Source: Methanomicrobiales archaeon (GTDB taxonomy: Archaea; Halobacteriota; Methanomicrobia; Methanomicrobiales; JACTUA01). From it: 64,000 bases of DNA. The stretch is from NCBI GenBank assembly GCA_015660865.1, contig JACTUA010000006.1:1-64000 (forward strand). Direction: 5' to 3'. The notes under the pieces were generated by a model, which saw only the letters and a program-made list of their open reading frames with translations, was not told the DNA's origin and did no database searches. Position numbers and translations under genes: made by a program. Shown one piece after another: positions 13,859-58,521 of the stretch. How positions within the stretch are numbered: position 1 is the first letter of the stretch; each line of letters starts with the position of its first letter.

Positions 13859-13908
13859 ATCGATATCCCTCATTCATGAAATGAATACACCTTACCATAC
13901 CAAATCTC

Positions 13909-24640: not shown

Positions 24641-24766
24641 GAGTTTATACTATGGTTTAATCAAAAAATTACGATAAGATTCCCGGTGCCCGAAATGGTT
24701 CTTCCATATTTTCGAGATGGCCTTGGTATGGTCGAAGAAACCAGCTAATATGATTATTGAAACCCT

Positions 24767-26008: not shown

Positions 26009-26054
26009 TCCTTAAACATATTTGATATCATACTAAAACTATCGACAATATGGT

Positions 26055-27896: not shown

Positions 27897-28998
27897 GACG
27901 CCATCGTTCCACAGTCTTCTCAAACGTAAAATTCTCTTCCACAAACTGCCGTCCATTCTCCGCAATTCTTTCCAGGTCCGAAGAATTCAGGGCTCTAATC
28001 ACATTCGCCGCAATGCATCCCGGTGAGTTATTCTCCATAATAAACCCCGTCTTCCCATCTTGGATAATATCCGGAATCGCCCCAACCGGCGTTGCGAGCA
28101 CCGGTGTTTCGCAGGCCATAGCCTCGAGCATGATGTTCGGGAGACCCTCAGTGTAGGAGGGAAGAACGAGAAGCCGAAGCTGGTTTAGATGCCAGGGGAG
28201 ATTGTCATAGGAAACCCAACCGGGGAGGTTGACATGGGCAGTGAGTTTCTGCGCCTGTAGGAACACCTCAATACTATCTTTCAACGGCCCATCCCCCCCG
28301 ATGAGTACACAGAGATCTGTTCGGTCGTCAAGAATGGTAGGTAGGGACCGGACAAAGTTCTGAATGCCTTTCTCTTCACTCAAGCGCCCGATGTAACCGA
28401 TGAGTGGGGGGCGGGCGGATAAGGGCGTCGTGACGGCAAAGGTGTCGAAATCAAGGAAGTGTTGATGGGCGATGATAATCTTGTGACAGTAAGGTTCAAG
28501 TTTCCACTCAGAAATGAGTCTTGGGGTGTAAACTACAATTTTATCTGCCAATGCTGATTTAATTGCAGATAATATTTTAACTATATTCCTAAAGGGATCA
28601 TGAACGAATGTAGAATCTTTTATTGTTGAACCTAAAATCAAAATAATAACTTTCTTTTTCAGTAATTTTGCAATGAACATAACGATAATTTCACGTTCTC
28701 CACCAAAAATAATCCAATAATTAATTTTTTTCCCAACTTTTATTATTATCAAGGATGCTTTTATCTGACCATATAAATTTCTTATTACTTTCAAAACTGT
28801 ATTCCCAATTTTATAACTGACATCGTACACCTTGAAGCGAGACTCGTTTTTGAATTTTTTATACCCTTCATTACCGGTGACCAATACGAATTCTGTTGAA
28901 ATATTGAATAGTATTTCAACCAGATTTGACAATGGTATTACGCTAGCTTTTGCTATTGGCAATGTTAATATCCCTATTCTTAGTTTTCTCTCCTCCAT
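27871..28998 (-). CDS. GT4 family glycosyltransferase
   Basis: A 375-aa GT-B enzyme. The donor domain is classical: IGYIGRLSEEKGIQNFVRSL near residue 200, IGGDGPLKDSI, then LPSYTEGLPNIMLEAMACET, the EGLPNxxLEAMA motif that binds the nucleotide sugar, and GKTGFIMENNSPG. The N-terminal acceptor half is more divergent and AT-rich, whereas the C-terminal half has clearly higher GC. The base composition changes near 28550, so the gene may be a recombinant of two sources. It overlaps the following membrane-protein gene by 26 bp. Confidence 0.9.
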   Translation of the reverse strand: MEERKLRIGILTLPIAKASVIPLSNLVEILFNISTEFVLVTGNEGYKKFKNESRFKVYDVSYKIGNTVLKVIRNLYGQIKASLIIIKVGKKINYWIIFGGEREIIVMFIAKLLKKKVIILILGSTIKDSTFVHDPFRNIVKILSAIKSALADKIVVYTPRLISEWKLEPYCHKIIIAHQHFLDFDTFAVTTPLSARPPLIGYIGRLSEEKGIQNFVRSLPTILDDRTDLCVLIGGDGPLKDSIEVFLQAQKLTAHVNLPGWVSYDNLPWHLNQLRLLVLPSYTEGLPNIMLEAMACETPVLATPVGAIPDIIQDGKTGFIMENNSPGCIAANVIRALNSSDLERIAENGRQFVEENFTFEKTVERWRHVLEKIAE

Positions 28999-29052
28999 GG
29001 AAACTCTGTTTTATTTTCAAATTAAGTCATAATATCTTACACATTTTTTAAT

Positions 29053-30186
29053 TCAATGCTGTATTTGATTTTTATATAATTTTGAGATGTCTGAGAACAC
29101 TTTAAGATATTGTTCCGAAATTATTTCCCAATCTAAGTTCGTAAGAGTATACATCCTTGCATTCTTTGCGTGATCCGAATGCCCCGACTTCAAATAATTC
29201 AAAATTTCATCTGCGGCCTTTTGAATCTCACTAAAACGAACAACAATCCCGCAATCAGCATCTTGTACCATCTCCAGGTTCGGAATATCTGATACAATAC
29301 AGGGTAAACCCGTTGACATCGCCTCCAGAAGTGTCAAAGGTGTACCTTCATACTTTGAAGTCATAATAAAGTAATCAGAGCACGCATATAGATCAGGAAG
29401 TTCTTGGTTGTCCACATGACCTAAGAATTTGATCTTTTGGATCCCCATCTTCTTTGCAAGTCTCTGGGTAGAATCAAGGAGTTCCCCTTTTCCGGCAATA
29501 CAGAGCATAATCTTATCCAATTGTTTTTCAAGAACAGAAAAAACCTCTAGCATCATGTGGGGCTGCTTTTGCGGAGTCAGTCGTCCGACGCTTAAAAGAA
29601 TTACATCCTCTTCAGGAATCCCAAACTTTTTTCGAATGATATTTTTATTTTCTGAAGGATGGAATTTTTTTATATCGACCCCATTGGGTATGTAAATGAT
29701 TCGGTCTTTATCGATTCCGATTTCCGAAAGTTCACTGCAAACCGGTTGCCCAACACCAGAAAAGATTGTCGAAGATTTCATCCGTAACAAACAATTCCGC
29801 TCAATCAACGCCACGAGTTTTTTATATATACGCAGATAGGCAGAACTGCCTACCTGGAAAAGCGATTCACCATAATATGTTGTATGAATTGTTACAAGAC
29901 TGTGGTGAAAAGGATTTGATATGGTAAAAAATGGATTGTGGAGCCATACTGCATCATAGTTATTTTTTTTAAAAAAACGAGAGACTTGATACCAAAAATA
30001 AAGGAGGCCTATAATCCCCATTTTTTGTATAAGAGAATGACTCCCCAACTGTATATCTGGACCATTTGGTGAACAAACTGTACAATCCACACCGTTTTGT
30101 TTGAGTACTTTGACCACATTATAAACTACGTTGGCAATACCTGAACCATGAGGATAATATTCAGAGGCGCAGACAAGCAATTTCAT
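29053..30186 (-). CDS. GT4 family glycosyltransferase
   Basis: A 377-aa GT-B enzyme. It begins KLLVCASEYYPHGSGIANVV with the acceptor-side Gly loop. The donor half holds LLSVGRLTPQKQPHMMLEVF, IAGKGELLDS, FLGHVDNQELPDLYA, and MTSKYEGTPLTLLEAMSTGL, the EGxPLxLLEAM nucleotide-sugar motif. The IYIPNGVDIKKFHP junction is typical. It is one of three adjacent GT4 genes on the same strand with gaps of 50-90 bp, probably one transcription unit. Its sugar specificity is unknown. Confidence 0.9.
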   Translation of the reverse strand: MKLLVCASEYYPHGSGIANVVYNVVKVLKQNGVDCTVCSPNGPDIQLGSHSLIQKMGIIGLLYFWYQVSRFFKKNNYDAVWLHNPFFTISNPFHHSLVTIHTTYYGESLFQVGSSAYLRIYKKLVALIERNCLLRMKSSTIFSGVGQPVCSELSEIGIDKDRIIYIPNGVDIKKFHPSENKNIIRKKFGIPEEDVILLSVGRLTPQKQPHMMLEVFSVLEKQLDKIMLCIAGKGELLDSTQRLAKKMGIQKIKFLGHVDNQELPDLYACSDYFIMTSKYEGTPLTLLEAMSTGLPCIVSDIPNLEMVQDADCGIVVRFSEIQKAADEILNYLKSGHSDHAKNARMYTLTNLDWEIISEQYLKVFSDISKLYKNQIQH

Positions 30187-30272
30187 TCAATTTTTCACAC
30201 AATGATTTGTTGAGTGATAGTTTTTTATGATTATTATGGCATCGATATTTATTTGAAGCAATGGTGACCATT

Positions 30273-31430
30273 TCAATGGCTATTTTTTTGGATTAAACGC
30301 GTATATAGATCTAAATATTCATCAATTATTTTATCCCAAGTGTAATTATTTATGACCTTCTCCTTCCCTGTTGATGATAATCGATTCGCCAATTCATTAT
30401 CCTTTAACAATCTTATTATTGCATCTGCCAGTGCCTGTTCGTCCTGTGGCGGAACAAGTAAAGAAGACTCGCTAAAGTGATCTTTAATTCCAGGAATATC
30501 TGAAGCAATAACGGGTAATCCAAAATAATATGCCTCAAGTATTACTGTTGGAAGCCCTTCAGACAATGAGGGTACAATTAACATTTTTGAGGATTTATAG
30601 GCTTTAATTAAATCAACAAAAGAAATTTTCTCTAAAAATATAACAGTGTCCTCCATTTTATACTCAATTATAGCTTTTCTTATTGTCTCAAGCTGATCTC
30701 CTGACCCAACAATTAATAATTTTACTTTGCTTCCTAATTCAATCGAATTTAATATTGAAAATGCTTTTATGAGATAAATTATTCCTTTTCTGGCGGATAA
30801 TTCACCAACAAACAAAATTGGAACCGTATTTTCAAGCTTATATTTTATTATAAAATCTGATGTATCAATGGTATTGTGATATGAAAAGTCTTCTACACAA
30901 ATCGCATTAGGAATCACTGAAATTCTATTCCTATCCATTCCAAATGATGCAATAAATTTTGCATCGGAATCTGAAAGAACTACTGCGTGATCTGCATTTT
31001 TCAATAACCAGGAAAATATAAGTTTTTCATACATTCTGACGATAAAATTCCGATAACGATCACCAAATTTCATCTGGCCATGATGTGTTAATATTAGTGG
31101 TTTATTATCAACTTTTTTTAGGATGTGCCCGAATATAGCTGCAGAACTATAAAGCAAATGAACCTGAATAAGATCGAATTTTTTTATCTCATCTTTATGA
31201 GGGAATATAAAAGCGGGCACAAGAGGATTCCTTAATGGTTCAGCAATACTAGTAAATCTTCGAATTTTTGTTCCATCAATAATTTCAATTTTTTTTGTTC
31301 GAGGGATGTTGGATGTATAAATTTCAACATCATGACCTTTTTTCACTAAATATTTACTCAAATTTCCAACATATCGTTCAATTCCCCCAGTATGGGGTAA
31401 AAAATATGGAGTGATTTGAAGGATTTTCAT
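30273..31430 (-). CDS. GT4 family glycosyltransferase
   Basis: A GT-B enzyme of about 385 aa starting MKILQITPYFLPHTGGIERY. The interdomain ISVIPNAICVEDF, the donor-side ILFVGELSARKGIIYLIKAF and IVPSLSEGLPTVILEAYYFG (EGLPTxxLEA motif) are all in place. An in-frame GTG lies two codons upstream of the ATG used here; GAGGTGA sits too close to the ATG to decide. The gene is AT-rich like its neighbours. It is separated from the GT2 gene before it by about 140 bp and may have its own promoter. Confidence 0.88.
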   Translation of the reverse strand: MKILQITPYFLPHTGGIERYVGNLSKYLVKKGHDVEIYTSNIPRTKKIEIIDGTKIRRFTSIAEPLRNPLVPAFIFPHKDEIKKFDLIQVHLLYSSAAIFGHILKKVDNKPLILTHHGQMKFGDRYRNFIVRMYEKLIFSWLLKNADHAVVLSDSDAKFIASFGMDRNRISVIPNAICVEDFSYHNTIDTSDFIIKYKLENTVPILFVGELSARKGIIYLIKAFSILNSIELGSKVKLLIVGSGDQLETIRKAIIEYKMEDTVIFLEKISFVDLIKAYKSSKMLIVPSLSEGLPTVILEAYYFGLPVIASDIPGIKDHFSESSLLVPPQDEQALADAIIRLLKDNELANRLSSTGKEKVINNYTWDKIIDEYLDLYTRLIQKNSH

Positions 31431-31570
31431 AATCACCTCAAAGTTTTCATGAACATGATAGAGGCACTCGAATATTCATAACGGTACGTTTTTTAATTAG
31501 TCAAGTCGTTCCGATGACGATCGCTATCATAGATACTCGTGATGGAACCCATCAATCTTGGTGACTTCCA

Positions 31571-33013
31571 TCATGATCCAGCTATCTTCTGCCGTTTCAG
31601 GATTTGTACCAGGGTATTCAGGATGAGACCCGATATGATGAGCAGCAGCCCGAGTAACAGGAAAATGCCGCTTATAAAAGACGGCCCGTAGGGGAGTTCC
31701 TTCGTCGAATAATATACTGAAAATGCAAAGAATCCGAATATCAGCCCGAGGGTTGTGGCAATTGCCCCGGATATCCCGAAGGTCATCATCGGTCGTTCGT
31801 ACCCGATGAGGTTGATGAGGCTTCCCAGGACCTCGAGGCCATGAGAAAGGGGGTTCTGGCTGGAAGTGCTGGGGACATCGTACCTGACCTTGATCGGGAT
31901 TTCGTGGACTTGAAAGGCATTCACTTGAATACATGAAAGGATCTCTGAACCTGCACTCATACCATGGTTATGGATCCTGATGGCCTGAATTGCTTTCCGC
32001 CCGTATGCACGGTATCCGCTCTGTGAATCGCTGATCTCTGTTCTGCTGGCAAAACTGGTGAATTTATCCAGCACCTTCATCCCGAAACGGCGATAGAGCG
32101 GAATATGAGAACTATTGGCGATGAAGCGTGATCCGATGACGATGTCAGCTTTTCTCTCCTTCAGGGACCTGAGGAAATCGGGGATATATTTCGGGTCGTG
32201 CTGGCCATCTCCGTCCATGATGATCAGGATATCGAAATCATTCTGCCGGGCGTACTCGAAGCATGATTTCAGGGCCGCCCCGTATCCCATATTTTCCGGG
32301 TGGGAGAGGACCTTTGCCCCTGCCCGCTGTGCAACGGCAACGGTATCGTCGGTACTCCCGTCATTGACCACGAGTATCTCGTTGACACAGGACTGGGCAC
32401 GTAATATCAGGGATCCGATGGTCAGGGTTTCATTGAAGCAGGGGATAGCAAGAAGAATCCTTTTATCCGGATCGTTATCCGGCGAATCCTTGAATATTTC
32501 AAGGACCGGCCGTGATATTGCGATATTCTTCTGGAGGGCTTCGATTAATTGCCGGTAATTCGAGGATATCTTCGTCTCCGAAACTGGGATGTTGGCCGGT
32601 AGATCCTTCTCGGTGAGAGGGGGCTTGATCCCGTCATCATGGGAGACCGGGCTCCTCACCTTTGTCAAATCAGCTCTTCCCCAGACGATAGGATCGATGA
32701 GTGACGGGATATACTTCGTATCATGTACGCTCGTTCCATCTATCACCGCAACGACATCCATTTTGTCCTCAATGGCTTTCACGAAGGCGGGTGTGAGGAG
32801 AAAATCACCATTCGTCTTTTCATGGGACCGGAGGAGGGAAATCCGTGGATTGCCGGAGATCACCCTGGAAAAATCGGCAACATCGGATGAATTGCCATTA
32901 CTCACAACATAGACATGATCGACATAGGGGGGTATCGACGAGATTATGTCACTGTTTATTGGTGTCCCGTTATGTGCAGGAAGTATTAGCCCAATCCGAT
33001 TACGGGAATACAT
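31571..33013 (-). CDS. GT2 glycosyltransferase with tandem GT-A domains and membrane tail
   Basis: A 480-aa protein. Residues 1-100 resemble a shortened first GT-A domain (RIGLILPAHNGTPINSDIIS ... VVAVIDGTS). The full GT2 domain follows (about 185-400): LLAIPCFNETLTIGSLI, EILVVNDGSTDDTVAVAQRA, the DxD site IIMDGDGQHDPKYIP, and then FTSFASRTEISDSQSGYRAY. Two C-terminal helices (about 410-465) anchor it. It resembles dolichol-phosphate sugar synthases (Dpm1/GtrB-like), which load a sugar on a polyprenyl lipid. It is higher in GC than the four GT4 genes downstream. The upstream edge borders a broken GT2 fragment. Confidence 0.83.
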   Translation of the reverse strand: MYSRNRIGLILPAHNGTPINSDIISSIPPYVDHVYVVSNGNSSDVADFSRVISGNPRISLLRSHEKTNGDFLLTPAFVKAIEDKMDVVAVIDGTSVHDTKYIPSLIDPIVWGRADLTKVRSPVSHDDGIKPPLTEKDLPANIPVSETKISSNYRQLIEALQKNIAISRPVLEIFKDSPDNDPDKRILLAIPCFNETLTIGSLILRAQSCVNEILVVNDGSTDDTVAVAQRAGAKVLSHPENMGYGAALKSCFEYARQNDFDILIIMDGDGQHDPKYIPDFLRSLKERKADIVIGSRFIANSSHIPLYRRFGMKVLDKFTSFASRTEISDSQSGYRAYGRKAIQAIRIHNHGMSAGSEILSCIQVNAFQVHEIPIKVRYDVPSTSSQNPLSHGLEVLGSLINLIGYERPMMTFGISGAIATTLGLIFGFFAFSVYYSTKELPYGPSFISGIFLLLGLLLIISGLILNTLVQILKRQKIAGS

Positions 33014-43893: not shown

Positions 43894-44949
43894 ATGACAT
43901 CTGAGACATGGTGGGAGAAGATCAGCAAATCCTCTACTCAATTGCCAACTCGTGTACCGATACCTCGAGAGCATGTGGATGTAGGAGAGAAGTTGGGAAC
44001 TATCAAGCCCAATGAGCACTACTTCCAGGTACTCATCAACGAAATATACCTGGCAAATTATAGAGAGTGGTTCTCAACCTACGATCCGATGTTGTTCATA
44101 GTCTCTGAATTTAACTACGGTCAAAAAAAAGAAACTGTGCCGTATATTGTTGGCCCGAGTATGATCGAGAGTATGATTGAGAAGTATGGGCAGAAGGCCC
44201 CACCAGGAATGATTTTTTCGGACACCCGGGTCACAGGTTTGCATCCCTATCGTGGAGATGGTTTAACCCTCTCCCTGATATTATTCCAAATAAAACGAGA
44301 TGCTTATCCCCGGAAATTCATGCAGATATTTGAAAACGCTGCGAAAGTTTTAGACTTTACCACCATGCTCAGCACATACGTGAAAGTGGCTGGTATCGTG
44401 CTTGATGGGGTGGAATCAATGCTTAATAAAACCGATGTACAGCCGCTCATTGGTTTACGCAAGGAATTTCCTAGTGATGTATTTGAATCGCAGTATTTTG
44501 CATTGGTCAATATGCCTGAGTCCAAGTTCAATCCCAATGAACTATGGGTTCGTAATGGGCAGCTCGTTCACGGTGATAACCTTCCGGATGCCAAACCCTA
44601 CCGTGATTCTGACTACGTGCTTTTCAGCATTAATCGAACATCTGAAAGAGATGATGTGGAAACTCTTCCCTTTTATCCACTTTGGAATCGTGTAGTAGAA
44701 GAAGCTAGGGTCGCAAAGGAAGATAACTGGGAAAGCGCAAAAACTGCCATGTCAAACCTGTACCTGGCCATGAGGCTCAGCCCGGATATAACCGAAAGTC
44801 ATGCGGAAGCATTAGCAGACGATTACATTACTAAAATGCAGGCCATACAAACAACGGCATGCAAGATTGCGAAATTGGGTGATGTAAAAACGAAGCCTTC
44901 CGAATTGGATGGCATAAGGGCCAAATCTCTCTCAATACTTAAGATGTAA
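43894..44949 (+). CDS. Unknown 351-aa protein, first gene of the CHAT/FlhA-C operon
   Basis: I do not recognise this family. It is soluble, with no signal peptide or clear transmembrane helix. The N-terminal 140 residues alternate short strands (MLFIVSEFNYG, TVPYIVGPSM, LTLSLILFQI) and contain the compact segment GLHPYRGDGLTLSLILFQIK. A helical part follows (about 142-190: RKFMQIFENAAKVLDFTTML then STYVKVAGIVLDGVES), mildly amphipathic. The rest is mixed, with a helical C-terminal 70 residues. It lies 34 bp before a CHAT protease gene in one operon. In such systems the first gene is often the protease's target or effector; that is a guess. AT-rich codon use marks it, like the whole operon, as likely acquired. 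Confidence 0.7.
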   Translation: MTSETWWEKISKSSTQLPTRVPIPREHVDVGEKLGTIKPNEHYFQVLINEIYLANYREWFSTYDPMLFIVSEFNYGQKKETVPYIVGPSMIESMIEKYGQKAPPGMIFSDTRVTGLHPYRGDGLTLSLILFQIKRDAYPRKFMQIFENAAKVLDFTTMLSTYVKVAGIVLDGVESMLNKTDVQPLIGLRKEFPSDVFESQYFALVNMPESKFNPNELWVRNGQLVHGDNLPDAKPYRDSDYVLFSINRTSERDDVETLPFYPLWNRVVEEARVAKEDNWESAKTAMSNLYLAMRLSPDITESHAEALADDYITKMQAIQTTACKIAKLGDVKTKPSELDGIRAKSLSILKM

Positions 44950-44983: not shown

Positions 44984-46492
44984 ATGAAGATGAAATATAT
45001 CGATTGCACACTGACCATTCGTGATAATAAGAATATAGAATATGTGGATCATTACAAACGTGATGCTCTTGGAGAAATAAGAATAGATGACCTCACGCTG
45101 AAGACAATCAAAAGATTAAAACATTGGGTGGATCGTGATGAACATTGTAATCGACAAGATCTAGAAATTTTAGGAGAGCAGCTCTATAATCTTATATTCA
45201 GCACTGTTAATCCCGAAAAGAAAATGACAGTAAGAGAAGCTTTTGAGAGAACTTTCGATGTGTTTGAGGAAGAGAAACAGAAGGGTTCTGATCAGCGCCT
45301 GAGGTTGTTTCTCGTCTTCCATAAAGAGGCAGTGGATTGGGCTTCATACCCATGGGAGTTTCTCTTCATGCCCCGTAATGCTGAAGGGTTTTTCCTAGCT
45401 GAGAAAAAAACTGATCTCATCCTAACTCGGTTTGTGCCTGAAGTTGTCATTAAGGATCGGAAGCCTGACTTACCTCTCAAAATTTTAATCGCATTTTCTC
45501 ATCCTCGGGATTTGCCACGTATTGTAGTTGATGATTTTATAAAAGCCATGGAAGCTCTAAAGTCAAAAGATATTGATGTCAAACTTTTAGAAAACCCCTC
45601 CCAATCTCAGCTTAAAAATGAAATGGATGAAGATGGGTTTAAGCCGGACATCCTGCACTTTATCGGCCATGGGAAACCTGGATTTATTGCTCTTAACAAG
45701 GAAGAGGAGCAGCTAAAAGTAGAAAGGAAGTTGAAAAAGAGCAACGAGGAGGTAAAGGATTATTTTTGGATTGATAACAAGACAGTGGTCGAGCTTTTCA
45801 GAGTTCATCATCCCTATTTCGTCTTTTTGCATGCCTGCAAAGGGGCCGAGCAAGATTCGTGGGACAGTTTTAAGGATACCGCGAGAGAGTTAGTCCATTC
45901 CAAGATACCGGTTGTAGTGGCGATGCAGTATGAGATCTCGGAAAATGATGCGAGTATTTTTGCTATAAAGTTTTACCAACAGATTAGTATAGGCAAATGT
46001 ATAGACGAAGCCGTAAGCGAGGCACGCTATGCATTAGGCACCATTGTCGGCCGGCAAGCTTGGGATGATCGTAGTTTCGGTACTCCTGTCGTCTACTTAC
46101 AGTCGGGAAGTGAAACCCCACTTTTTGAACCCAGAAAGCAAGATGGTGAAATCGAGGATACTGTCCGATGTCCTTATTTTTACTATCCCCCTCCCGATAA
46201 TTGTACTGGAAGCGTGCCTAAGAAATTATCACCTCGGGACAAAGCCTGCAGTGCATGTGGGCGGGAAATTATGGAATGTCCGGCTTGCCACCAAGTAATG
46301 GCTAAAAAACGGGGGTTTTGCAGTTGCGGATATAAACTGAGTGAGATCCCGGCCAGAGAAGACAGCAAGCAAATAGATCGGACAAAAGATAAAGAATATG
46401 AATTAGGTGCTAAAGGGGCAGGATTAACTCAGCCTCAGAATGGTATGTTGAAACAGCCCTCCACAAGTGAGAAATCTGCCAAAAGCAGGTAG
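44984..46492 (+). CDS. CHAT cysteine protease with C-terminal zinc-ribbon array
   Basis: A 502-aa protein of the CHAT (caspase HetF-associated with TPRs) peptidase clan. The catalytic dyad is visible: His229 in LHFIGHGKPGF and Cys285 in FVFLHACKGAEQ. The final strand region VPVVVAMQYEISENDASIF-like and RSFGTPVVYLQSG is also typical. Residues 1-160 are a divergent N-terminal domain with WASYPWEFLF. After residue 395 come eight Cys (396, 407, 422, 425, 432, 435, 446, 448) in CxxC and CxC pairs, forming one or two zinc ribbons that may bind a partner or nucleic acid. The tail is disordered. It would cut a specific protein on activation. TPR scaffolds typical for CHAT proteins are in the next gene. 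Confidence 0.88.
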   Translation: MKMKYIDCTLTIRDNKNIEYVDHYKRDALGEIRIDDLTLKTIKRLKHWVDRDEHCNRQDLEILGEQLYNLIFSTVNPEKKMTVREAFERTFDVFEEEKQKGSDQRLRLFLVFHKEAVDWASYPWEFLFMPRNAEGFFLAEKKTDLILTRFVPEVVIKDRKPDLPLKILIAFSHPRDLPRIVVDDFIKAMEALKSKDIDVKLLENPSQSQLKNEMDEDGFKPDILHFIGHGKPGFIALNKEEEQLKVERKLKKSNEEVKDYFWIDNKTVVELFRVHHPYFVFLHACKGAEQDSWDSFKDTARELVHSKIPVVVAMQYEISENDASIFAIKFYQQISIGKCIDEAVSEARYALGTIVGRQAWDDRSFGTPVVYLQSGSETPLFEPRKQDGEIEDTVRCPYFYYPPPDNCTGSVPKKLSPRDKACSACGREIMECPACHQVMAKKRGFCSCGYKLSEIPAREDSKQIDRTKDKEYELGAKGAGLTQPQNGMLKQPSTSEKSAKSR

Positions 46493-46497
46493 AGTTT

Positions 46498-49194
46498 ATG
46501 GCAATTTCCGATGAATTTATTCAATTAATTGCACAGGTGTATTATGAAGCGGCATTGCAAAATGCAGACATGCGAGACGTGACAGAAGCGCTAGAAACCA
46601 TTCGCTCCGCTATTGTAAAGAGAGAGAATAAATTTAAAATATGGGATTCGATTGACCAGTATATCGGACAGGCAGAGAATGAGAGCTTTCGGAAGGTATT
46701 TATTGAATTCCGCAGTCGTTTTCGACAGCAATTTCTAACGAACGAGACTGTTCGCTTGCGTGAGGCGTTTAGCACCAGCCCTGATGAGGGGTGGATAGAA
46801 TGGTTGCGAGCCTATGCCGAGGCTTTTTCCTTTGGGCGATTAAAATGTTGTCTGAAACTTTCTGAAGAGCACTTTCCATTTCAGGCTGATGTCGCACCGG
46901 TAGTAGAGAGAATCCGCCAGTCAACACGATATGCGGTACATGATCGATGGCCAGAAGTGTATGACACTATTATCTACCTTGCAGATCAAGAGTGTATCCC
47001 CAAATCGCTGCGTACCAGCCTGCTTGTTGTAGCTGCTGAGATTCAACTTTATTATTTTTATAAGCTGGATGATGCGAAGGATTTGTTGAAACGCGGCGAG
47101 GAACTTGACCCAGGGAATAGCAGGGTCATTTGTGGCTTTGGAAAGTACTCGTTGCAACAAAACGAATTTGATAAAGTCAAAGAGTATTCCCAAGAAGCCA
47201 TCAGCCGGGACCCACTCCTAACAACGAGTTATACATTAATGGGTGACTCGTATGATCGGCAGAATAAGCTTGATAATGCTGAGGAATGGTATCGCAAAGC
47301 TATAAGTAAAAAAAGCGGCGATTCGGATGGATACCTTGGGCTGTTGCGCCTTTATGGGCGTCCTGAGATGTTTGCAGCCCATGAAGCGGACCTAATGCCT
47401 CTTCTTAATCGAGCCATTTCTGTAGACCCAGCAAGAGAATACAATGCGTATATTGATATGGGTCACATTTACCAGCAAAATCGGCAATATCCGAAAGGTC
47501 ACGACTGGTACGATAGAGCTATCAAGCTTGATGGTACTCGCATTGGAGGCTATACCAGTAAAGGGTATTCATATTTGGAAGAGAAAAACTACGACGGGGC
47601 ATGCGACTCCTTTCAAAGGGCCATCAAATTAGCCCCTGAAGCATTCGATGGCTACTGGGGAATGGCTTGGCTCTATGAGCGGAAGGGGTCATTGGAGGAC
47701 GCTTTGCAGTGGTACGAGCTAAGTCTGCCAAAACGGCCAAACTGGGAAGGGATTATCCGAGGCAAGATAGGCGAAATTAAATTGAAGCAAGGGAAATATG
47801 AAGAAGCTCGAGAGGAGATTGCATTAGCATATCAAGTTGATAAGAATGAAGATGTATATCGAAGGACGATGGCAACTATTTTCAATGCTGAGGGTAACGA
47901 GTGTTACTCTCAAACTGATTATGGCAAAGCCATTGAAAAATATGAGAGAGCAATAGAATTTAATCCAAAAGATGAAATTTTTCACTCTAATCTTGCTGGC
48001 GCCTGGGAAAAGCTCAGTGATCCTGGAAAAAAGGTTGATGCCCTTGGCAATGCGATATCAGCTTTACAGCAGGCTCATGAGCTGAATCCAGATGACCGTG
48101 ATTATATCGAAAAGATCTCCAGATTGCAGAGAAAGAAGAGCATAGCGGAGCATTTTGGCGAAAAAGCTCTCGATAGATTCCTCGTTGTAACCCCAATTGC
48201 AGTTGAGGTCGCCGGCAACCTGATACCTTGCGTGGAATCAGAAACTGAATCAGGACTGCATCCGACTTTAAATCGCTTAATCGGTATAATGCGTAAAGAC
48301 ATCAACAATACAAGCGGAATTAGTATCCCTGGTATAAGGTTCCGGGGTAATGAAGACCTTCCAGCTGGTACTTACAATATTATCATGAATGAGATTCCTC
48401 TCGTCAGTGGAACTATTTTGGAGGAGAAGAGATTATTCCCAGGTCCCATGGCAAATTTGACACCATTGGGTGTTTTCGGAGAGGAGACAGATAATCCTTT
48501 AACGGGAGATAAAGCAGTTTGGATCAAACGAGAGGACTGGAAAAAAGTGGAACTATCGAAGCAAGCCCTTTGGGAAGTTATCGAGTACATGGTACGACAC
48601 CTGGAGGCTGTTATTCGAAGAAACTTGGACGAGTTCTTCGGTCATCAAGAGATTATGACTAAATTATCTCCCTATGATGATATTTACAAGAATATGCAGG
48701 ATACTCCGGCAGATCTTACTGCATGTACCATGGTTATGAAAGGTTTATTAAACGAGGGCGTGCCAATTATCGAGTTCGAAAAACTCGTCGAAAGATTCAA
48801 TGAGTCAAGGAAGGATAAAAAGAATCTTTTAACCATTATCGATACGATTCGTTCCCTGCCTGAAGTCAAAACAACATTACCAGGGAATAATGATCAATAT
48901 TCTTTTTATCGGCTCGGGCAGCGATTTGAAGAAGAGGTTAAAAAGTCTGTATCCATTGAGGATTACCTGCCTTTCTTGGCCACAAAACCATTAATTATTC
49001 AGAAGGCCCTTACAGCCGTGAGACGGAAGATCGGATCTAACCGGAATGTGGCCCTGTTCGTTGAAAATGCAGAATTAAGACCATTCGTCAGACAATTGAT
49101 CGAGATTGAGTTTCCGCTTGTTCCCGTTTTATCCAGAATGGAGTTGCTACCGGATCTTGAAGGTAAAATAACAGGGGAGATTGAATTGGAGTAA
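46498..49194 (+). CDS. TPR protein with C-terminal FlhA/SctV cytoplasmic-like domain
   Basis: An 898-aa soluble protein. Residues 1-150 are helical. Residues 170-545 form about nine TPR units (e.g. TSYTLMGDSYDRQNKLDNAE, GYTSKGYSYLEEKNYDGACD, GYWGMAWLYERKGSLEDALQ). From about 560 the sequence follows the FHIPEP (FlhA/SctV) cytoplasmic domain: TPIAVEVAGNLIPCVE, LNRLIGIMRKDINNTSGISI, PGIRFRGNEDLPAGTYNIIM, a KAVWIKREDW segment, VRHLEAVIRRNLDEFFGHQE, and the later GVPIIEFEKLVERFNESR. In export machines this domain forms a nonameric ring that docks chaperones. Here no membrane part exists. It starts five bases after the CHAT stop. A role as scaffold or sensor of the protease is inferred. Confidence 0.83.
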   Translation: MAISDEFIQLIAQVYYEAALQNADMRDVTEALETIRSAIVKRENKFKIWDSIDQYIGQAENESFRKVFIEFRSRFRQQFLTNETVRLREAFSTSPDEGWIEWLRAYAEAFSFGRLKCCLKLSEEHFPFQADVAPVVERIRQSTRYAVHDRWPEVYDTIIYLADQECIPKSLRTSLLVVAAEIQLYYFYKLDDAKDLLKRGEELDPGNSRVICGFGKYSLQQNEFDKVKEYSQEAISRDPLLTTSYTLMGDSYDRQNKLDNAEEWYRKAISKKSGDSDGYLGLLRLYGRPEMFAAHEADLMPLLNRAISVDPAREYNAYIDMGHIYQQNRQYPKGHDWYDRAIKLDGTRIGGYTSKGYSYLEEKNYDGACDSFQRAIKLAPEAFDGYWGMAWLYERKGSLEDALQWYELSLPKRPNWEGIIRGKIGEIKLKQGKYEEAREEIALAYQVDKNEDVYRRTMATIFNAEGNECYSQTDYGKAIEKYERAIEFNPKDEIFHSNLAGAWEKLSDPGKKVDALGNAISALQQAHELNPDDRDYIEKISRLQRKKSIAEHFGEKALDRFLVVTPIAVEVAGNLIPCVESETESGLHPTLNRLIGIMRKDINNTSGISIPGIRFRGNEDLPAGTYNIIMNEIPLVSGTILEEKRLFPGPMANLTPLGVFGEETDNPLTGDKAVWIKREDWKKVELSKQALWEVIEYMVRHLEAVIRRNLDEFFGHQEIMTKLSPYDDIYKNMQDTPADLTACTMVMKGLLNEGVPIIEFEKLVERFNESRKDKKNLLTIIDTIRSLPEVKTTLPGNNDQYSFYRLGQRFEEEVKKSVSIEDYLPFLATKPLIIQKALTAVRRKIGSNRNVALFVENAELRPFVRQLIEIEFPLVPVLSRMELLPDLEGKITGEIELE

Positions 49195-50828
49195 TGGAGG
49201 GGGAGTTCGAAAACATGGAAGGAATACCAGATATTTTGGGACAAGGAAAAGTCGTTGTTGAATTGACTCCTTCACTGGAACGCTTTACCGATCCAGAAAG
49301 TAGTGATAGTAATGCCTTGAAACAATATCTTCTGCAACTGCTGAATGATCTCATAGCGGATCTTAGGATTCCCGTAGAAATCTCATTACACGTAAAACTC
49401 GGTGACGACAAAAATAGGTTTGGTATAAACTCCTATCAGGTATCCGTTAACGATAGTAAATGCAGGTTACAACTCCCAACTATCTTGGGTCAAGATGTGC
49501 AAGCCAAAGAACTGGCCGGATCTATAGTAAAGGTCATTCATCAAAATCGCGATTTGTTCATCACGATACCATTAGCTGAGAAGATTCGGAAGGAGTGGTC
49601 ATCTGTTAGTGGTGAAACGGATTTGATGGTTTGGCCAGAGAAAGGTTTTCCCGAATTTCTATCGGAGCTCGTTCGTCGTGGATTCAGGATTGATCGAGGG
49701 AAGGCAATTGTTCAGAAATCTAAAGATACGGGGCAAAATATATGGAGCGCTGAGGAATGTTTTGAAGAAGCGGTTTCCGGATTTGATACAACAATAAAAG
49801 TTTTCTTCAACCAGGAGGGTGCAAAAATACAGTCCCCAGCCGACAAAAACTCACTCGAAGAGATGTTTGACCTTATGCAGGACGGCCTCTTTTATGAGTT
49901 AGGGATTATCCTTCCAGGGGTGAAGATCGATACTGATGAGAGCTTGGACGAGAATGAATTCAGAATACAACTGAATGATCTCCGATCTCCACCCGATCAA
50001 GGTCCTGCACAAGATGAGTTTTTGGTGAATGATACATCTGATAGACTGTTCCTCTTAAATTTAACCGGCAAAAAGGCCGTGAATCCTGCAAATGGGACTG
50101 AAGGCGCTCTTGTTCAAGATAGAAATACAGCCTTAAAAATATGTGAAAAAGCAGGGTTGACTTCGTGGGGACCGGCCGGCTTTGTCATCCTTGCACTCAG
50201 TTCTAATGTCAGGAGAAATGCTGGTAACTTCCTGACAACTGAGATCCTCAAATTCAGTCTGGATCGGCTGAATGAGGCTTTTCCTGATCTTGTGGACACA
50301 ACGCTGAAGCGTTTTGATGAAGTGATACTGACCCGGATTTTGAGAGATTTGTTAGATGAAGAGCTCTCCATCAGGGATCTTCGAGGGATCCTCGAAGCGT
50401 TGCTAGAAGTCAGTGGTTCATCCATCGATGATCAGAGTAAAAATCTAGTGTCCTCCCCCCATATTCTCAGCTTATTGCGGAAATCCCTTGATCGATATAT
50501 TTCAAATAAATGTAAAACCAGAGACAACACCTTGGTTGTATATCTTTTAGATAAACTGATAGAGAAGAGAATTATGCAGGAACGGTTATTGAACGATGAA
50601 GAACGTGATCGATTGATAAAAGCTTTCTTCGGCGAGTTTGGAGTTTTGCCTGTAGCATCCCAAAATCCAATTATCTTGACAACTTTAGGGGTTAGAAAAA
50701 AGCTCAAGAATCTAATTGAAAAAGAATTTCCCAGAATTTTTGTGTTGTGCTATCAGGAACTTGGGCCCGATTTAAATATTCAACCGATCGCTCGAATTAC
50801 ATGGGACAGAAGAATTGGAGCTATGTAA
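49194..50828 (+). CDS. Second FlhA-C-like protein
   Basis: A 544-aa soluble protein. From about residue 225 it resembles the FHIPEP cytoplasmic domain: LMQDGLFYELGIILPGVKID, ENEFRIQLNDL, then KRFDEVILTRILRDLLDEEL with SIRDLRGILEALLEVSGSSI (the best-conserved FlhA stretch), LRKSLDRYISNK and VRKKLKNLIEKEFPRIFVLC. The first 120 residues (LLQLLNDLIADLRIPVEISL ... NSYQVSVND) may be a partial duplicate of the same subdomain. The start overlaps the previous stop as TAATG. A GGAGGGGGAG inside would serve an alternative ATG at 49215. It lacks TPRs and membrane helices. Hetero-ring formation with the previous product is a natural guess. Confidence 0.8.
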   Translation: MEGEFENMEGIPDILGQGKVVVELTPSLERFTDPESSDSNALKQYLLQLLNDLIADLRIPVEISLHVKLGDDKNRFGINSYQVSVNDSKCRLQLPTILGQDVQAKELAGSIVKVIHQNRDLFITIPLAEKIRKEWSSVSGETDLMVWPEKGFPEFLSELVRRGFRIDRGKAIVQKSKDTGQNIWSAEECFEEAVSGFDTTIKVFFNQEGAKIQSPADKNSLEEMFDLMQDGLFYELGIILPGVKIDTDESLDENEFRIQLNDLRSPPDQGPAQDEFLVNDTSDRLFLLNLTGKKAVNPANGTEGALVQDRNTALKICEKAGLTSWGPAGFVILALSSNVRRNAGNFLTTEILKFSLDRLNEAFPDLVDTTLKRFDEVILTRILRDLLDEELSIRDLRGILEALLEVSGSSIDDQSKNLVSSPHILSLLRKSLDRYISNKCKTRDNTLVVYLLDKLIEKRIMQERLLNDEERDRLIKAFFGEFGVLPVASQNPIILTTLGVRKKLKNLIEKEFPRIFVLCYQELGPDLNIQPIARITWDRRIGAM

Positions 50829-51296
50829 ATGGAAACAGCAGCCGCTCGTTATTTAGAGTTTATGGTAAATGACTACTATAATCGCCTCATGGCTTTGCTG
50901 GATTTAGAAGATCTTAGCGACGAGGATTTGGAGACGCTCTACGCCCTTGGATACAACTTTTTCACCTACGGTAAATACCAAGCTGCCAAAGACATTTTCG
51001 TCCGTCTGACGGCCATTGCTCCCTACACAGCTTTCTATTGGCGTGCCCTTGGAGCGGTGAACCAACAGATGAAAAACTACGCTGAAGCGATTGCTGCTTA
51101 CAATATGGCCATCGCCAATGATGAGGCGGACATTGTAAGTTACGTTTATCGGGGTGAGTCGCAGATTCTGTCAGGGAACATTGAGGCAGCTTTAAAAGAT
51201 TTCGAGAAGGTTTTAAAGATCGGAGCTAATGATTCACAGACAGAACCTTGGGTGAAGCGCGCTCATTTACTTATTAATATACATAAACAATCCTAA
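50829..51296 (+). CDS. SycD/LcrH-like small TPR chaperone
   Basis: A 155-aa protein with three tandem TPRs: ETLYALGYNFFTYGKYQAAK (about 37-56), AFYWRALGAVNQQMKNYAEA (71-90) and SYVYRGESQILSGNIEAALK (105-124). The order, the LEDLSDEDLETLYALGYN lead-in and the GKYQAAKDIFVRLTAIAPYT spacing match class II type III secretion chaperones (SycD, LcrH, SicA, PcrH), which bind translocators and dock on SctV/FlhA. The ATG follows the previous stop codon directly, with TTGGAG upstream, so it is coupled. Beside two FlhA-C-like proteins, the chaperone resemblance is unlikely to be chance. Confidence 0.8.
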   Translation: METAAARYLEFMVNDYYNRLMALLDLEDLSDEDLETLYALGYNFFTYGKYQAAKDIFVRLTAIAPYTAFYWRALGAVNQQMKNYAEAIAAYNMAIANDEADIVSYVYRGESQILSGNIEAALKDFEKVLKIGANDSQTEPWVKRAHLLINIHKQS

Positions 51297-52044
51297 CGTT
51301 TGAGTATTATTCAGTTCAAATTGCTGAAAAAACACAATTTGGATTTAATTTTTTTAAAAAATTATAAAAATCTCGCCCTTCCTCTAATCTAAAAAAGAAT
51401 AAAGTAAATCACCGACTGCAAAAAAAAGAACAGTCCACATTACCCTCAATCTGGAAAATACACAGCCAATTGTGTGTTATTTAAAAAAATGCATTACCAC
51501 TTGAATTAGCAGGTGTTGGCACGGGTTGTTAATCCTGCCAGAGCTTAGCAGATTATCGTCATTATCACAGGATGAGATCAGTTCTCACATTTATGATGGT
51601 AAGTCCCTCGGGAAGACCATAGGTTAATTCATCTGGAAAAACAGGTTTAGAATTATTTGATGTAGAGTAAAATATCATCTCCGACACAGATAGTATCCGA
51701 GGAATGGGAAACTGATATTTCAAGAAAATCGAACATATTAGCCGAACTTCCTCCCCTATGAATCACCACGTATCGATTAAAAATATAGAAAGTGTTGCAG
51801 AACCTGTCGAAACCTTTATGAATGATATTGGTTCTTTCTACCAAGTAGGGATTCCGGATAAAGGCGCTATTCAGCCATACAGTTCAACCCATCTGGTTGG
51901 TCATTCAGTCATCCAGTGGGGTCTTATCAGGATTACCGGCCTCATAACTCTCATCACCCCCGGAATTCGAGCGGGAAGAATCTGATTATCCTTGGAGCCC
52001 GAGATCAACAGACATAAAAGTGGAACGAAGTGAGGTTGCTCGTT
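51297..52044. other. 750-bp gap after the CHAT operon
   Basis: The first 70 bp hold T-rich tracts (around 51345-51370) suited to ending the operon's transcript. On the minus strand at 51570-51845 two overlapping frames read as protein (GGSSANMFDFLEISVSHSSD and, one base shifted, SKPVFPDELTYGLPEGLTII). They look like a frameshifted gene remnant, family unknown. ACATAAAAGT at about 52011-52020 is a possible promoter for the next gene. Confidence 0.4.
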
Positions 52045-53187
52045 ATGGACGTTGAAATCCGCCAGAATGTAGGTGTGAGAAACCCGTATGCCCTCATGGC
52101 CCTGAAGAGTTCATTGAAGAAGGGCTGGTGGAGGGCGAAGAGCCTTGAGGATGCGAAGAAAGATTTTCAGAAGAAGTTCAACAAGCCCTTCGAGAAACTC
52201 TTTGATCCTATCAACGACTCCCCTCTATACCATGGACTTCCCGGGGTATTCGGCACTGCTGTCCAAGCCCACGTTGGGGCAAAGACGGACTGTACAAATC
52301 TCCTCTCTGCATGGAAGAGAAGGGATGAATGGATCTACTACAATCCCACCCTGGACTGGTTTGATCCTATCCAGGGTTGCGTTGCGAACTGCTTCCTGAT
52401 ATCTGCCCTCTCCTCCCTTGCCTGGGTCTGTCCCGGCCTCATGCCCAGGGTTACAGGGAGGGACTCGAACAATGTCCCCTTCGACCAGTATAAATTCTAC
52501 CCTTCCGGTGGCGCTCAACCCACCTCTGTCACGGTCACGGAGCAGCTCCCGGTGAATGCGAACGAAGAGCTGGTCTATGCAACATCCTATACCCAGAACG
52601 AGATCTGGCCATCGGTATACGAGAAGGCGTATGCGAAATTCTGGGGATGCCCGGTCATAGATGGGGATGGAGACAAGCCGGACATCTCCCAGATGTGCTC
52701 CGGGAACCCCCTCACCGCCCTGGTCAATCTCACCGGCCTGGGAGCTGTTGCTCACCTTACTCAGGAGTTTAACTCGGGCAGTGATCTTTTCGTCGCTTTG
52801 AGCAGTCTCACCGAAGGGTCCAAGTGCAAATTCCCCATGGTCGGGTGGACCCACCCGACCGCTCCAGATGGGAGCGGCATCTCTTTTACAAGCGATCAGA
52901 TCGTGGCGAACCATTCCTACTCCATCCTTGGAACCTATATCGATCCGGCAACGAGCAAGAAGTGTATCGTCCTCCGAAACCCCTTCGGCCCCAACATGGG
53001 AGACCCGAACGTTCCCGGAGTACTATCAGGGACCTGGACATACAACCTTGCCTACTTCAGACAGGGGGGGGTAAGAATTACAATCCCGGTGAAAAGAACC
53101 CTTGATCTCACCTTAGCCGATGGAGTCTTTGCATTCGACTCAGATGAATTCATCAAATACTTCGAGGCCTTCGGGTACGTCACATGA
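52045..53187 (+). CDS. Calpain-like cysteine protease (family C2)
   Basis: A 380-aa cytoplasmic-type cysteine protease. The triad fits calpains: Cys116 in DPIQGCVANCFLISALSSLA (calpain QGxxGDCWLLAAIASL), His290 in VANHSYSILG, and Asn312 in VLRNPFG. The segment EIWPSVYEKAYAKFWG is the calpain WPxLLEKAYAK motif. There is no signal peptide and no C2L or EF-hand domain. The ATG at 52045 is preferred over a GTG at 52030 since GTGAGGT serves as its ribosome site. Its stop overlaps the next start (ATGA), coupling it to a huge exported propeller protein. Archaeal calpains are rare; the substrate may be that partner or a cytoplasmic protein. Confidence 0.9.
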   Translation: MDVEIRQNVGVRNPYALMALKSSLKKGWWRAKSLEDAKKDFQKKFNKPFEKLFDPINDSPLYHGLPGVFGTAVQAHVGAKTDCTNLLSAWKRRDEWIYYNPTLDWFDPIQGCVANCFLISALSSLAWVCPGLMPRVTGRDSNNVPFDQYKFYPSGGAQPTSVTVTEQLPVNANEELVYATSYTQNEIWPSVYEKAYAKFWGCPVIDGDGDKPDISQMCSGNPLTALVNLTGLGAVAHLTQEFNSGSDLFVALSSLTEGSKCKFPMVGWTHPTAPDGSGISFTSDQIVANHSYSILGTYIDPATSKKCIVLRNPFGPNMGDPNVPGVLSGTWTYNLAYFRQGGVRITIPVKRTLDLTLADGVFAFDSDEFIKYFEAFGYVT

Positions 53188-56579: not shown

Positions 56580-57548
56580 ATGCCCCTCCCCTTCCTGATC
56601 CGGCGCCCTCCTGATATCACCTCGCTGCAGGAGGCGAAGGATACCCGGGGGCTCATCCGGCTCCTCACCCATCCCGACCCTGATACCCAGTGGAAGGCGG
56701 CCGCGGCCCTGGGGACCCTCGGGGATCCCGCCCTCGAAGACCTCGTCAGGGGCCTCGATCACCCTGATGTGCGTGTGCGGCTCGGGATCCTCGAGGCTCT
56801 CGGGGAGATCGGGGATGCCAGGGCCGCCCGGCCCCTCCAGGTGATCCTTGCAGGGGACAAGAGCAGCGAGATCCGCTGGGCTGCCGCCCTCGCCCTGGGG
56901 AACCTGGGCGGTGCCGGCGCCATCCCCTCCCTGGTGAAGGCCCTCGGGGATCCGGACAAATACGTCCGGTTCGGTGCAGCCACAGCTCTCGGGAGGCTCG
57001 CATGGGAACCTGGCAGCGGCGAGGAGAGGGCCCTCTCCCTCATCGCGAGGCAGGAGTGGCCCCCCCTCCCGCCTCTGGGTTCGCAGGCTGTCGGGCCCCT
57101 GCTCCGGGCAACGCGGGACCGGGATCCCGCCATCCGCGCCCGGGCTGTCGAGATCCTCGGGGAGATTGGCGGACAGGGGGCAGGGGAGGCGTGCGGTCCC
57201 ATTCTCAGGGACCCGGATGGCGAGGTCCGCTGGAGGGCGACCCTCGCATTCCCGAGGTGCGGTATCCCCCTGATGCACCTCCCCATGGGCCTTGCCCGGC
57301 GGCCCAGGCCGGGGAAGAGCCCGGTGGTCGCAGCCTTCCTGAACCTCCTCTTCCTCGGCCTCGGATACAACTACCTGGGCAGGTGGTACGGGTTCCTCCT
57401 CTTCCAGCTGAACCTGACCGCGATCGTCCTCGCATCCCTCGTATGGGGCCCGCTCCTCCCCTACGCCGTCTCATATACCCTCTCGGCGCCCATCGCCGTG
57501 CAGACCTGGTACCAGGCACGGGGAATGCAGGAACAGGAGCCGGGATGA
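56580..57548 (+). CDS. HEAT-repeat protein with C-terminal membrane segment
   Basis: A 322-aa protein. Residues 15-225 form six to seven PBS-lyase-type HEAT repeats of about 31 residues (e.g. TQWKAAAALGTLGDPALEDL, VRLGILEALGEIGDARAARP, IRWAAALALGNLGGAGAIPS). After PRCGIPLMHLPMGLARRPRP come two or three hydrophobic helices (about 245-310), the first containing AAFLNLLFLGLGYNYLGRWY. This resembles a TM2-like or DUF5683-like hairpin. Its twin follows 14 bp downstream. HEAT repeats bind proteins, and the anchor puts them at the inner membrane face. Function unknown. Confidence 0.8.
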   Translation: MPLPFLIRRPPDITSLQEAKDTRGLIRLLTHPDPDTQWKAAAALGTLGDPALEDLVRGLDHPDVRVRLGILEALGEIGDARAARPLQVILAGDKSSEIRWAAALALGNLGGAGAIPSLVKALGDPDKYVRFGAATALGRLAWEPGSGEERALSLIARQEWPPLPPLGSQAVGPLLRATRDRDPAIRARAVEILGEIGGQGAGEACGPILRDPDGEVRWRATLAFPRCGIPLMHLPMGLARRPRPGKSPVVAAFLNLLFLGLGYNYLGRWYGFLLFQLNLTAIVLASLVWGPLLPYAVSYTLSAPIAVQTWYQARGMQEQEPG

Positions 57549-57561
57549 GGGAGGTACCTTC

Positions 57562-58521
57562 ATGAATCTCTCTTCGATCTTCCGGCCCGGGACCCCCGAT
57601 ATCGACGCAATGAAGAGCCGAAGGGATATCCCGGGCCTGATCGCAGCTCTCCGGCACCAGGATACCGATACCCAGTGGAAGGCTGCAGCAGCCCTCGGCT
57701 CCCTCGGCCCGGATGCCATCAGCCACCTGATCAGGGGGCTCGCGACCAGGAACAGGGCGGCGAAGCTCGGGATCATCGAGGCCCTCGGGGAGATCCGGGA
57801 CCCCCAGGCAGTCGAACCCCTCATAAAGAACCTCCGGGACCCGAGCGCGGAGGTCAGGTGGGAGGCTGCCCTTGCCCTCGGGGAGATCCGGGATGAACGG
57901 GCGATCGGCCCCCTCCTTCCCTGCCTCCGGGACCCGGATCGCTACGTCCGCTACGGGGCTGCCCTTGCCCTCCCGAAGCTGGGGTGGAAGCCGGCGAACG
58001 ATGAGGAGCAGGCCTACCGGCTCCTCGGCCTCCAGGACTGGCCAGGGCTAGCTGCCCTCGGGCCTTCGGCTATACCTGCCCTCAGCTTCGCCCTGAAGGA
58101 CCGGGAGAGGACGGTGCGGAGGAGGGCGGTGGAGATCCTCGGCGAGATCGGGGATACAGGGGCGATCCCGGCGATCATCCGCGCCCTCCGGGACCCCGAT
58201 GACGGGGTGCGCTGGCGTGCCGTCCTGGCAGGGCCGAGGTGCGGGATTGCTCCCATGCACCTCCCCCGCAGCCTCTCGCAGCGCCCCCGGGTGAGGAAGA
58301 CCCCCTCTGTCGCAGCCCTCCTGAACCTCATCCTCCCGGGGCAGGGCTACCTCTACCTCGGGCGGTGGTGGGGGGTCCTCGTCTTCCAGGTCGACATCAC
58401 CGCGACCCTCTGGCTCTTTGCCACGGTGGGGGACCAGCCCACCTACGGCCTCCTCCTCCCCCTCTACGTCATCCTCGCCGCCCATGCATGGTACCTGGCC
58501 GGAAGGATGCCCGAGATGTGA
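57562..58521 (+). CDS. HEAT-repeat protein with membrane segment, paralogue of the previous gene
   Basis: A 319-aa protein aligned with its neighbour from end to end: DTDTQWKAAAALGSLGPDAI, VRWEAALALGEIRDERAIGP, YVRYGAALALPKLGWKP, RCGIAPMHLPRSLSQRP and AALLNLILPGQGYLYLGRWW. A GGGAGGT ribosome site precedes the ATG. Tandem duplication made the pair; they have since diverged by many substitutions, so it is not recent. They probably form a hetero-complex in the membrane. Confidence 0.82.
   Translation: MNLSSIFRPGTPDIDAMKSRRDIPGLIAALRHQDTDTQWKAAAALGSLGPDAISHLIRGLATRNRAAKLGIIEALGEIRDPQAVEPLIKNLRDPSAEVRWEAALALGEIRDERAIGPLLPCLRDPDRYVRYGAALALPKLGWKPANDEEQAYRLLGLQDWPGLAALGPSAIPALSFALKDRERTVRRRAVEILGEIGDTGAIPAIIRALRDPDDGVRWRAVLAGPRCGIAPMHLPRSLSQRPRVRKTPSVAALLNLILPGQGYLYLGRWWGVLVFQVDITATLWLFATVGDQPTYGLLLPLYVILAAHAWYLAGRMPEM

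Follow-up and report, generated by a model that had tools for sequence, protein, structure and literature searches.

Secretion gates are known to use the cytosolic domain of FlhA/SctV (FlhA-C) as their docking ring. In YscV, the TPR chaperone YscY is bound in the SD2-SD4 cleft, and the nonameric ring needs SD3 and SD4 (PMC9163089). Among protease systems, the Craspase TPR-CHAT of type III-E CRISPR combines a CHAT protease with a TPR partner, while VMAP-C, MoxR, and caspase are components of published conflict systems (PMC7159879). Bacterial gasdermins provide a precedent for a protease-activated partner (PMC9079055), and protease-activated nucleases and caspase-nuclease pairs provide a second (PMC12799240). 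The operon described here appears to resemble the protease-gated immune switches overall (gasdermin-caspase, caspase-nuclease, and Craspase), with FlhA-C as the putative assembly platform. At its core it is a CHAT-protease operon, which is a known kind; the paired FlhA-C modules are what is new. In open-licence papers we found neither an account that links FHIPEP with CHAT nor one of a free archaeal FlhA-C protein, and FlhA, FHIPEP, and type III secretion go unmentioned in papers on related conflict-system neighbourhoods, PMC7159879 included.

The operon lies in the window, by which we mean the whole stretch of 64,000 nucleotides analysed, from a methanogenic archaeon with a genome of 1.94 Mb that is 99% complete. 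Its five genes, all on the plus strand, run in the order gene 1, CHAT protease, a-type TPR/FlhA-C protein (P0002), b-type protein (P0001), and SycD/LcrH-like TPR protein. The spacing is tight: the genes for the two FlhA-C proteins, P0002 and P0001, overlap by 1 base, and the other gaps measure 34, 5, and 0 bases. The features are as follows.

43894..44949, plus strand: gene 1, 351 aa, no known family; proposed protease substrate/effector
44984..46492, plus strand: CHAT protease (PF12770, E 3.4e-13), with catalytic His229 (FIGHG) and Cys285 (LHACKG) and a Cys-rich, zinc-ribbon-like C-terminal tail
46498..49194, plus strand: a-type P0002, 898 aa, with an N-terminal region without family, a TPR array (matches to TPR families), and a C-terminal FlhA-C
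48130-49155, plus strand: FlhA-C of P0002, residues about 545-886 (PF00771, E 4e-37)
49194..50828, plus strand: b-type gene (P0001), 544 aa, two tandem FlhA-C-like modules
49311..49724, plus strand: degenerate compact FlhA-C module (SD1+SD3) of P0001, residues about 40-177 (hhalign)
49824..50804, plus strand: C-terminal full FlhA-C domain of P0001 (SD1+SD2+SD3+SD4), residues 211-537 (VIA-align and alignment)
50829..51296, plus strand: SycD/LcrH-like TPR protein, 155 aa, beginning directly after the P0001 stop (TIGR02552, E 1.5e-29)

Comparison with the SctV/FlhA proteins (YscV, CdsV, FlhA) revealed that residues 211-537 of P0001 contain SD1 to SD4 and that SctV/FlhA-C chains are its best structural matches. 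The earlier note had placed a second FlhA-C-like protein here, and its coordinates proved right: the ORF opens with an ATG at 49194, the last base of its stop codon is 50828, and it encodes 544 aa. The match to FlhA-C is real by Pfam, NCBIfam, PDB, and structure comparison. In the Pfam search, PF00771 (FHIPEP) matched residues 191-526 with an E-value of 4.7e-37, and the NCBIfam families TIGR01399 (SctV) and TIGR01398 (FlhA) gave 136.9 and 101.8 bits. By PDB sequence search, residues 217-535 matched a CdsV chain (6wa6, E 1.3e-34), with CdsV/YscV chains best. The AlphaFold2 model of P0001, built from four sequences, is of low confidence (mean pLDDT 53); its residues 211-536 aligned to Bacillus subtilis FlhA (3mix) by VIA-align with Z 17.8 over 252 residues (rmsd 4.0), and the next unrelated structures were far lower (Z <7). 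The FlhA-C motif that the earlier note had cited, LDEELSIRDLRGILEALLEV, is found at residues 387-406, within SD3. We conclude beyond reasonable doubt that residues 211-537 are an FlhA/SctV cytosolic domain.

Unlike SctV/FlhA, P0001 has no transmembrane domain. Its match to the FHIPEP profile begins only at position 311-325 of 657, and the N-terminal multi-helix membrane domain of FHIPEP was not found in the protein, whose best hydrophobic 19-mer averages 1.28. A hydrophobicity scan of all five operon products gave no convincing membrane helix. P0001 and P0002 also differ from SctV/FlhA in that two lineages occur as separate proteins and P0001 adds an N-terminal compact module. Secretion genes were likewise not found: a genome-wide search for the FHIPEP membrane domain and FliP/SctR gave no match, and FHIPEP occurred nowhere beyond the operon. 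In the phylum, 1 of the 393 genomes searched contains FHIPEP, the host genome itself. The SycD/LcrH-like protein scored 102.5 bits with TIGR02552, just below the curated cut-off of 104.8; a different TPR protein in the window scored 41 bits. The neighbouring genes mark the host as a methanogen: they encode a methanogenesis regulator of the FilR1 type and a B-family DNA polymerase of archaeal type, and a methanogen S-layer family is matched more weakly.

The N-terminal part of P0001 had been proposed to duplicate the opening subdomain of FlhA-C. Both repeated motifs are present (NDLIADLRIP at residues 51-60 and NSYQVSVN at 79-86), and both have C-terminal counterparts (YELGIILPG at 234-242 and NEFRIQLN at 254-261). 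As a single sequence, this part of P0001 scored 14.9 by hhalign, within noise. When the first 200 residues of P0001 and its Ktedonobacteraceae orthologue (locus L012) were combined into a profile of two sequences, it scored 29.5 against the compact FlhA-C (E 4e-4) in a colinear alignment of 120 columns that omitted SD2 and SD4, and 150 column shuffles reached at most 23.4. A profile without these two proteins gave 26.2 versus at most 22.1 in shuffles. When a wider-family profile of the module was used, hhalign gave a score of 37.4 (E 1.6e-5, probability 79%, 132 columns) with 100 shuffles at or below 22.8, and two other choices of master gave 29.0 and 31.9, each exceeding all of its own shuffles. 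Because the profile alignments are colinear to FlhA-C and above the shuffles, we take the repeat to span SD1 and SD3. Thus the repeat itself stood, while its extent had been understated, since it covers SD1+SD3 (residues 40-176) and not the opening subdomain alone. In the low-confidence AlphaFold2 model, the predicted order of helices and strands mirrors that of the C-terminal module. An internal FlhA-C duplication in P0001 is likely but short of certain, because the real-protein controls are single sequences and the fold has no confident prediction. By VIA-align, residues 19-133 also gave matches of middling strength (Z up to 6.8) to small proteins of alpha/beta type, hibernation factors among them, which we took as a common arrangement.

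The operon resembles Craspase in that a CHAT protease with its His/Cys dyad kept accompanies a TPR protein; unlike Craspase, it has no Cas7-11/gRAMP, its CHAT is unfused to TPRs, and FlhA-C proteins and gene 1 are present instead. The CHAT His and Cys motifs are conserved across all related operons; the catalytic residues are intact, and the product is a predicted protease. Zinc-ribbon matches to its tail were weak (E 0.025). PADLOC called no known defence system and gave just a weak SAVED_CHAT match to the CHAT protein (E 1.6e-4). GC content is 0.40-0.47 at 43.0-52.0 kb versus 0.63-0.65 over the 6 kb upstream, a contrast that suggests import. A calpain-like protease gene (Peptidase_C2, E 3e-20) lies on the same strand at 52030-53187. 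It starts 733 bases beyond the end of the operon and precedes a gene for a PKD-domain protein; the island may thus contain two proteases, or this one may have no connection with it.

Gene 1 gave no Pfam, NCBIfam, or PADLOC match. Of its homologues, at 21-46% identity, most of those examined adjoin a protease. CHAT is the neighbour in the window, in loci L012 to L014, and on a Rhizobium plasmid, where an S8 protease is also near; caspase C14 is the neighbour on a Pseudanabaena plasmid, trypsin with EAD8 in cyanobacterial genomes, a papain-like C1 protease on a Sporomusa plasmid, and a C70/C39-like protease in Bacteroidota. Some homologues have no recognised neighbouring protease (for example, L022, L030, and a Prosthecochloris plasmid). 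A constant small protein with interchangeable proteases of unrelated clans is the pattern expected of a protease substrate, and by this analogy the gene 1 product is probably the CHAT substrate. The pairing of a protease with a small, putatively latent effector is shared with the gasdermin-caspase and caspase-nuclease (canu) pairs, and gene 1 pairs with proteases of several clans. Unlike the effectors of those pairs, gene 1 matched neither gasdermins nor nucleases in the sequence searches. Its AlphaFold model has a mean pLDDT of 52, and the best PDB structure matches were meaningless, giving nothing usable. The locus of its nearest plasmid homologue, with VMAP-C, MoxR, and caspase genes, links it to the VMAP/MoxR ternary systems (PMC7159879); unlike these, the archaeal operon has no MoxR, vWA, or VMAP gene at 43.9-51.3 kb. 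Gene 1 is rare, being found in 3 of 301 Chloroflexota, 2 of 297 Acidobacteriota, 4 of 292 Cyanobacteriota, and 2 of 296 Bacteroidota genomes, counts that include the starting genomes; the phyla are those suggested by the names of the loci from which each search began.

A scan with gene 1 returned four loci. In the Ktedonobacteraceae MAG (Chloroflexota, L012), gene 1 is followed by CHAT, an a-type TPR gene, and a full-length P0001 orthologue of 37% identity that includes the N-terminal part and lacks SD2. Both the CHAT and the a-type TPR genes of this locus are frameshifted, through either MAG error or decay. A Terriglobia MAG (Acidobacteriota, L013) has gene 1, CHAT, and a TPR protein of 973 aa with two compact FlhA-C modules at its C-terminal end. 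Chitinophaga silvatica (L014) has gene 1, CHAT, and a TPR protein without FlhA-C, showing that FlhA-C is dispensable for the protease module, and in Pseudanabaena (L011) gene 1 precedes a caspase-like ORF. A search with P0001 added a further Ktedonobacteria genome (L045), in which a 310-aa protein, CHAT, a 1231-aa TPR protein terminating in a compact FlhA-C, and a free 224-aa compact FlhA-C form an operon from which gene 1 is absent. The 310-aa protein (minus strand, 12936-13865), which has no family match, occupies the gene 1 position and is possibly an alternative protease substrate.

SD1 and SD3 are kept in all orphan FlhA-C versions of these operons. P0001 and P0002 keep SD2 and SD4 as well, whereas both FlhA-C of L045 are without them. 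The SycD-like gene was found only in the archaeal operon, where both FlhA-C proteins retain SD2 and SD4; it is absent downstream in L012 and L045, and the L013 contig ends there, so that the correlation between this gene and SD2/SD4 is based on three loci. We infer that SD3, together with SD1, forms the core of assembly and that the docking cleft is optional, because SD1 and SD3 are universally kept and the SycD-like gene tracks SD2/SD4. Two related loci lack SD4, which the YscV nonamer needs, and those versions therefore may not close rings.

Viral contigs gave no relatives of P0001, gene 1, or FlhA. When plasmids and phages were searched by tblastn with P0001 and the FlhA-C part of P0002, those of the matches listed that had an annotation were sctV/flhA genes, and no free FlhA-C operon was seen among them; the N-terminal parts of the two proteins gave no match. 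The stretch examined of a 'Bacteriophage sp.' record with FlhA (MT835480.1) proved to be a normal cluster of bacterial flagellar genes.

In a tree of the shared SD1-SD3, the TPR-linked a-type domains (P0002 and the first modules of L013 and L045) clustered with support of 80/91, and the free or second b-type domains (P0001, L012, and the second modules of L013 and L045) with 87/94. Support is moderate and branches are long, and conclusions are restricted to the a-, b-, and SctV groups; a joint origin of a and b is compatible with the tree (AU p 0.26). The a-type and b-type FlhA-C thus appear, with moderate support, to be two separate co-encoded lineages. The Terriglobia chain fuses one a-type and one b-type module. 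The paired occurrence of the lineages and this fusion are the best evidence for an a-b partnership; they support, without proving, that the two domains may act together as a hetero-oligomer.

Our preferred reading, held tentatively and at somewhat under an even chance, is that a soluble FlhA/SctV-C pair, out of secretion, serves as a cytosolic scaffold gating the CHAT protease. The a- and b-type domains would assemble a mixed ring or arc via SD3, which is retained in every version. Where kept, the SD2/SD4 cleft would bind the SycD-like TPR protein in the way that YscV binds YscY, and the TPR array of the a-type protein may read or hold a different ligand. Infection, proteotoxic stress, or another such trigger would alter the assembly and release or cluster the protease, which would cleave the gene 1 product, a latent effector, leaving the cell harmed or arrested. 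By analogy, the role of the operon is probably defensive. A bolder form of this proposal, in which a mixed ring of an export-gate-derived FlhA-C pair would be an inflammasome-like platform that switches CHAT onto the latent effector in archaea and bacteria alike, we regard as doubtful.

The same proteins could be read as a sensor or decoy, in which the FlhA-C pair would mimic an export gate, catch a foreign TPR chaperone or substrate (of a phage, plasmid, or predatory bacterium), and signal to CHAT. Chaperone-substrate complexes do dock on FlhA-C (PMC9431611, PMC9163089), and a protease output is present in the operon, but several versions have lost the SD2-SD4 docking cleft while keeping SD1+SD3, which suits assembly over ligand capture, and the operon already encodes a SycD-like partner; we consider a sensor unlikely. 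A housekeeping scaffold, with the operon controlling some ordinary process (protein quality control or development, for example) and not acting as an immune switch, likewise seems unlikely to us. It would suit the non-canonical FlhA-C proteins, some HTH_17-fused, in ordinary neighbourhoods of Cyanobacteriota-group genomes and the lack of a PADLOC match to known defence systems. Such a role fits poorly, however, with a sparse, patchy distribution across one archaeon and several bacterial phyla, with the low-GC island, and with the proteases and conflict-system genes that so often accompany gene 1.

The two FlhA-C proteins might instead act separately, each as a homo-oligomer or monomer, and be co-encoded just for dosage. 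Although known FlhA/SctV cytosolic rings are homo-nonamers (PMC9163089), the co-occurrence of distinct lineages and the a-b fusion in Terriglobia make separate action clearly improbable. Least credible, and in our view very improbable indeed, is a remnant or part of a true type III secretion or flagellar apparatus: FlhA-C and the SycD-like protein are both type III secretion parts, but neither the FHIPEP membrane domain nor FliP occurs in the 99%-complete genome, the intact ORFs begin with other domains and not with a decayed membrane part, and the same arrangement is found again in other phyla.

On the preferred reading of a scaffold that gates CHAT, a caspase-like protease, the switch seems to have taken over a component of secretion. 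If this is true, FlhA-C would be a general assembly platform, borrowed by immunity or cell-death systems. The natural versions with only SD1+SD3 let the needs of assembly be separated from those of chaperone docking, a division of FlhA-C parts that has been approached so far via deletions in secretion systems.

Free or differently fused FlhA-C also occurs in the Cyanobacteriota group, where we observed HTH_17-FlhA-C fusions (L094, 5765-7015; L098, 5318-6556), a free 215-aa compact FlhA-C (L095, 6040-6684), proteins of about 490 and 570 aa with other N-terminal regions (L097, 4647-6122; L099, 4867-6588), and a tandem pair of FlhA-C ORFs (L101, 3-2137). ORFs with a length of about 490-510 aa turn up in many of the group's roughly 2-Mb genomes. 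Elsewhere in the window, judged by eye, an adjoining paralogous pair of HEAT-like-repeat genes with hydrophobic C-terminal parts lies at 56580-58521, and another low-GC stretch (0.31-0.42) at 23100-32000 contains glycosyltransferase-like and polysaccharide-transport-like ORFs.
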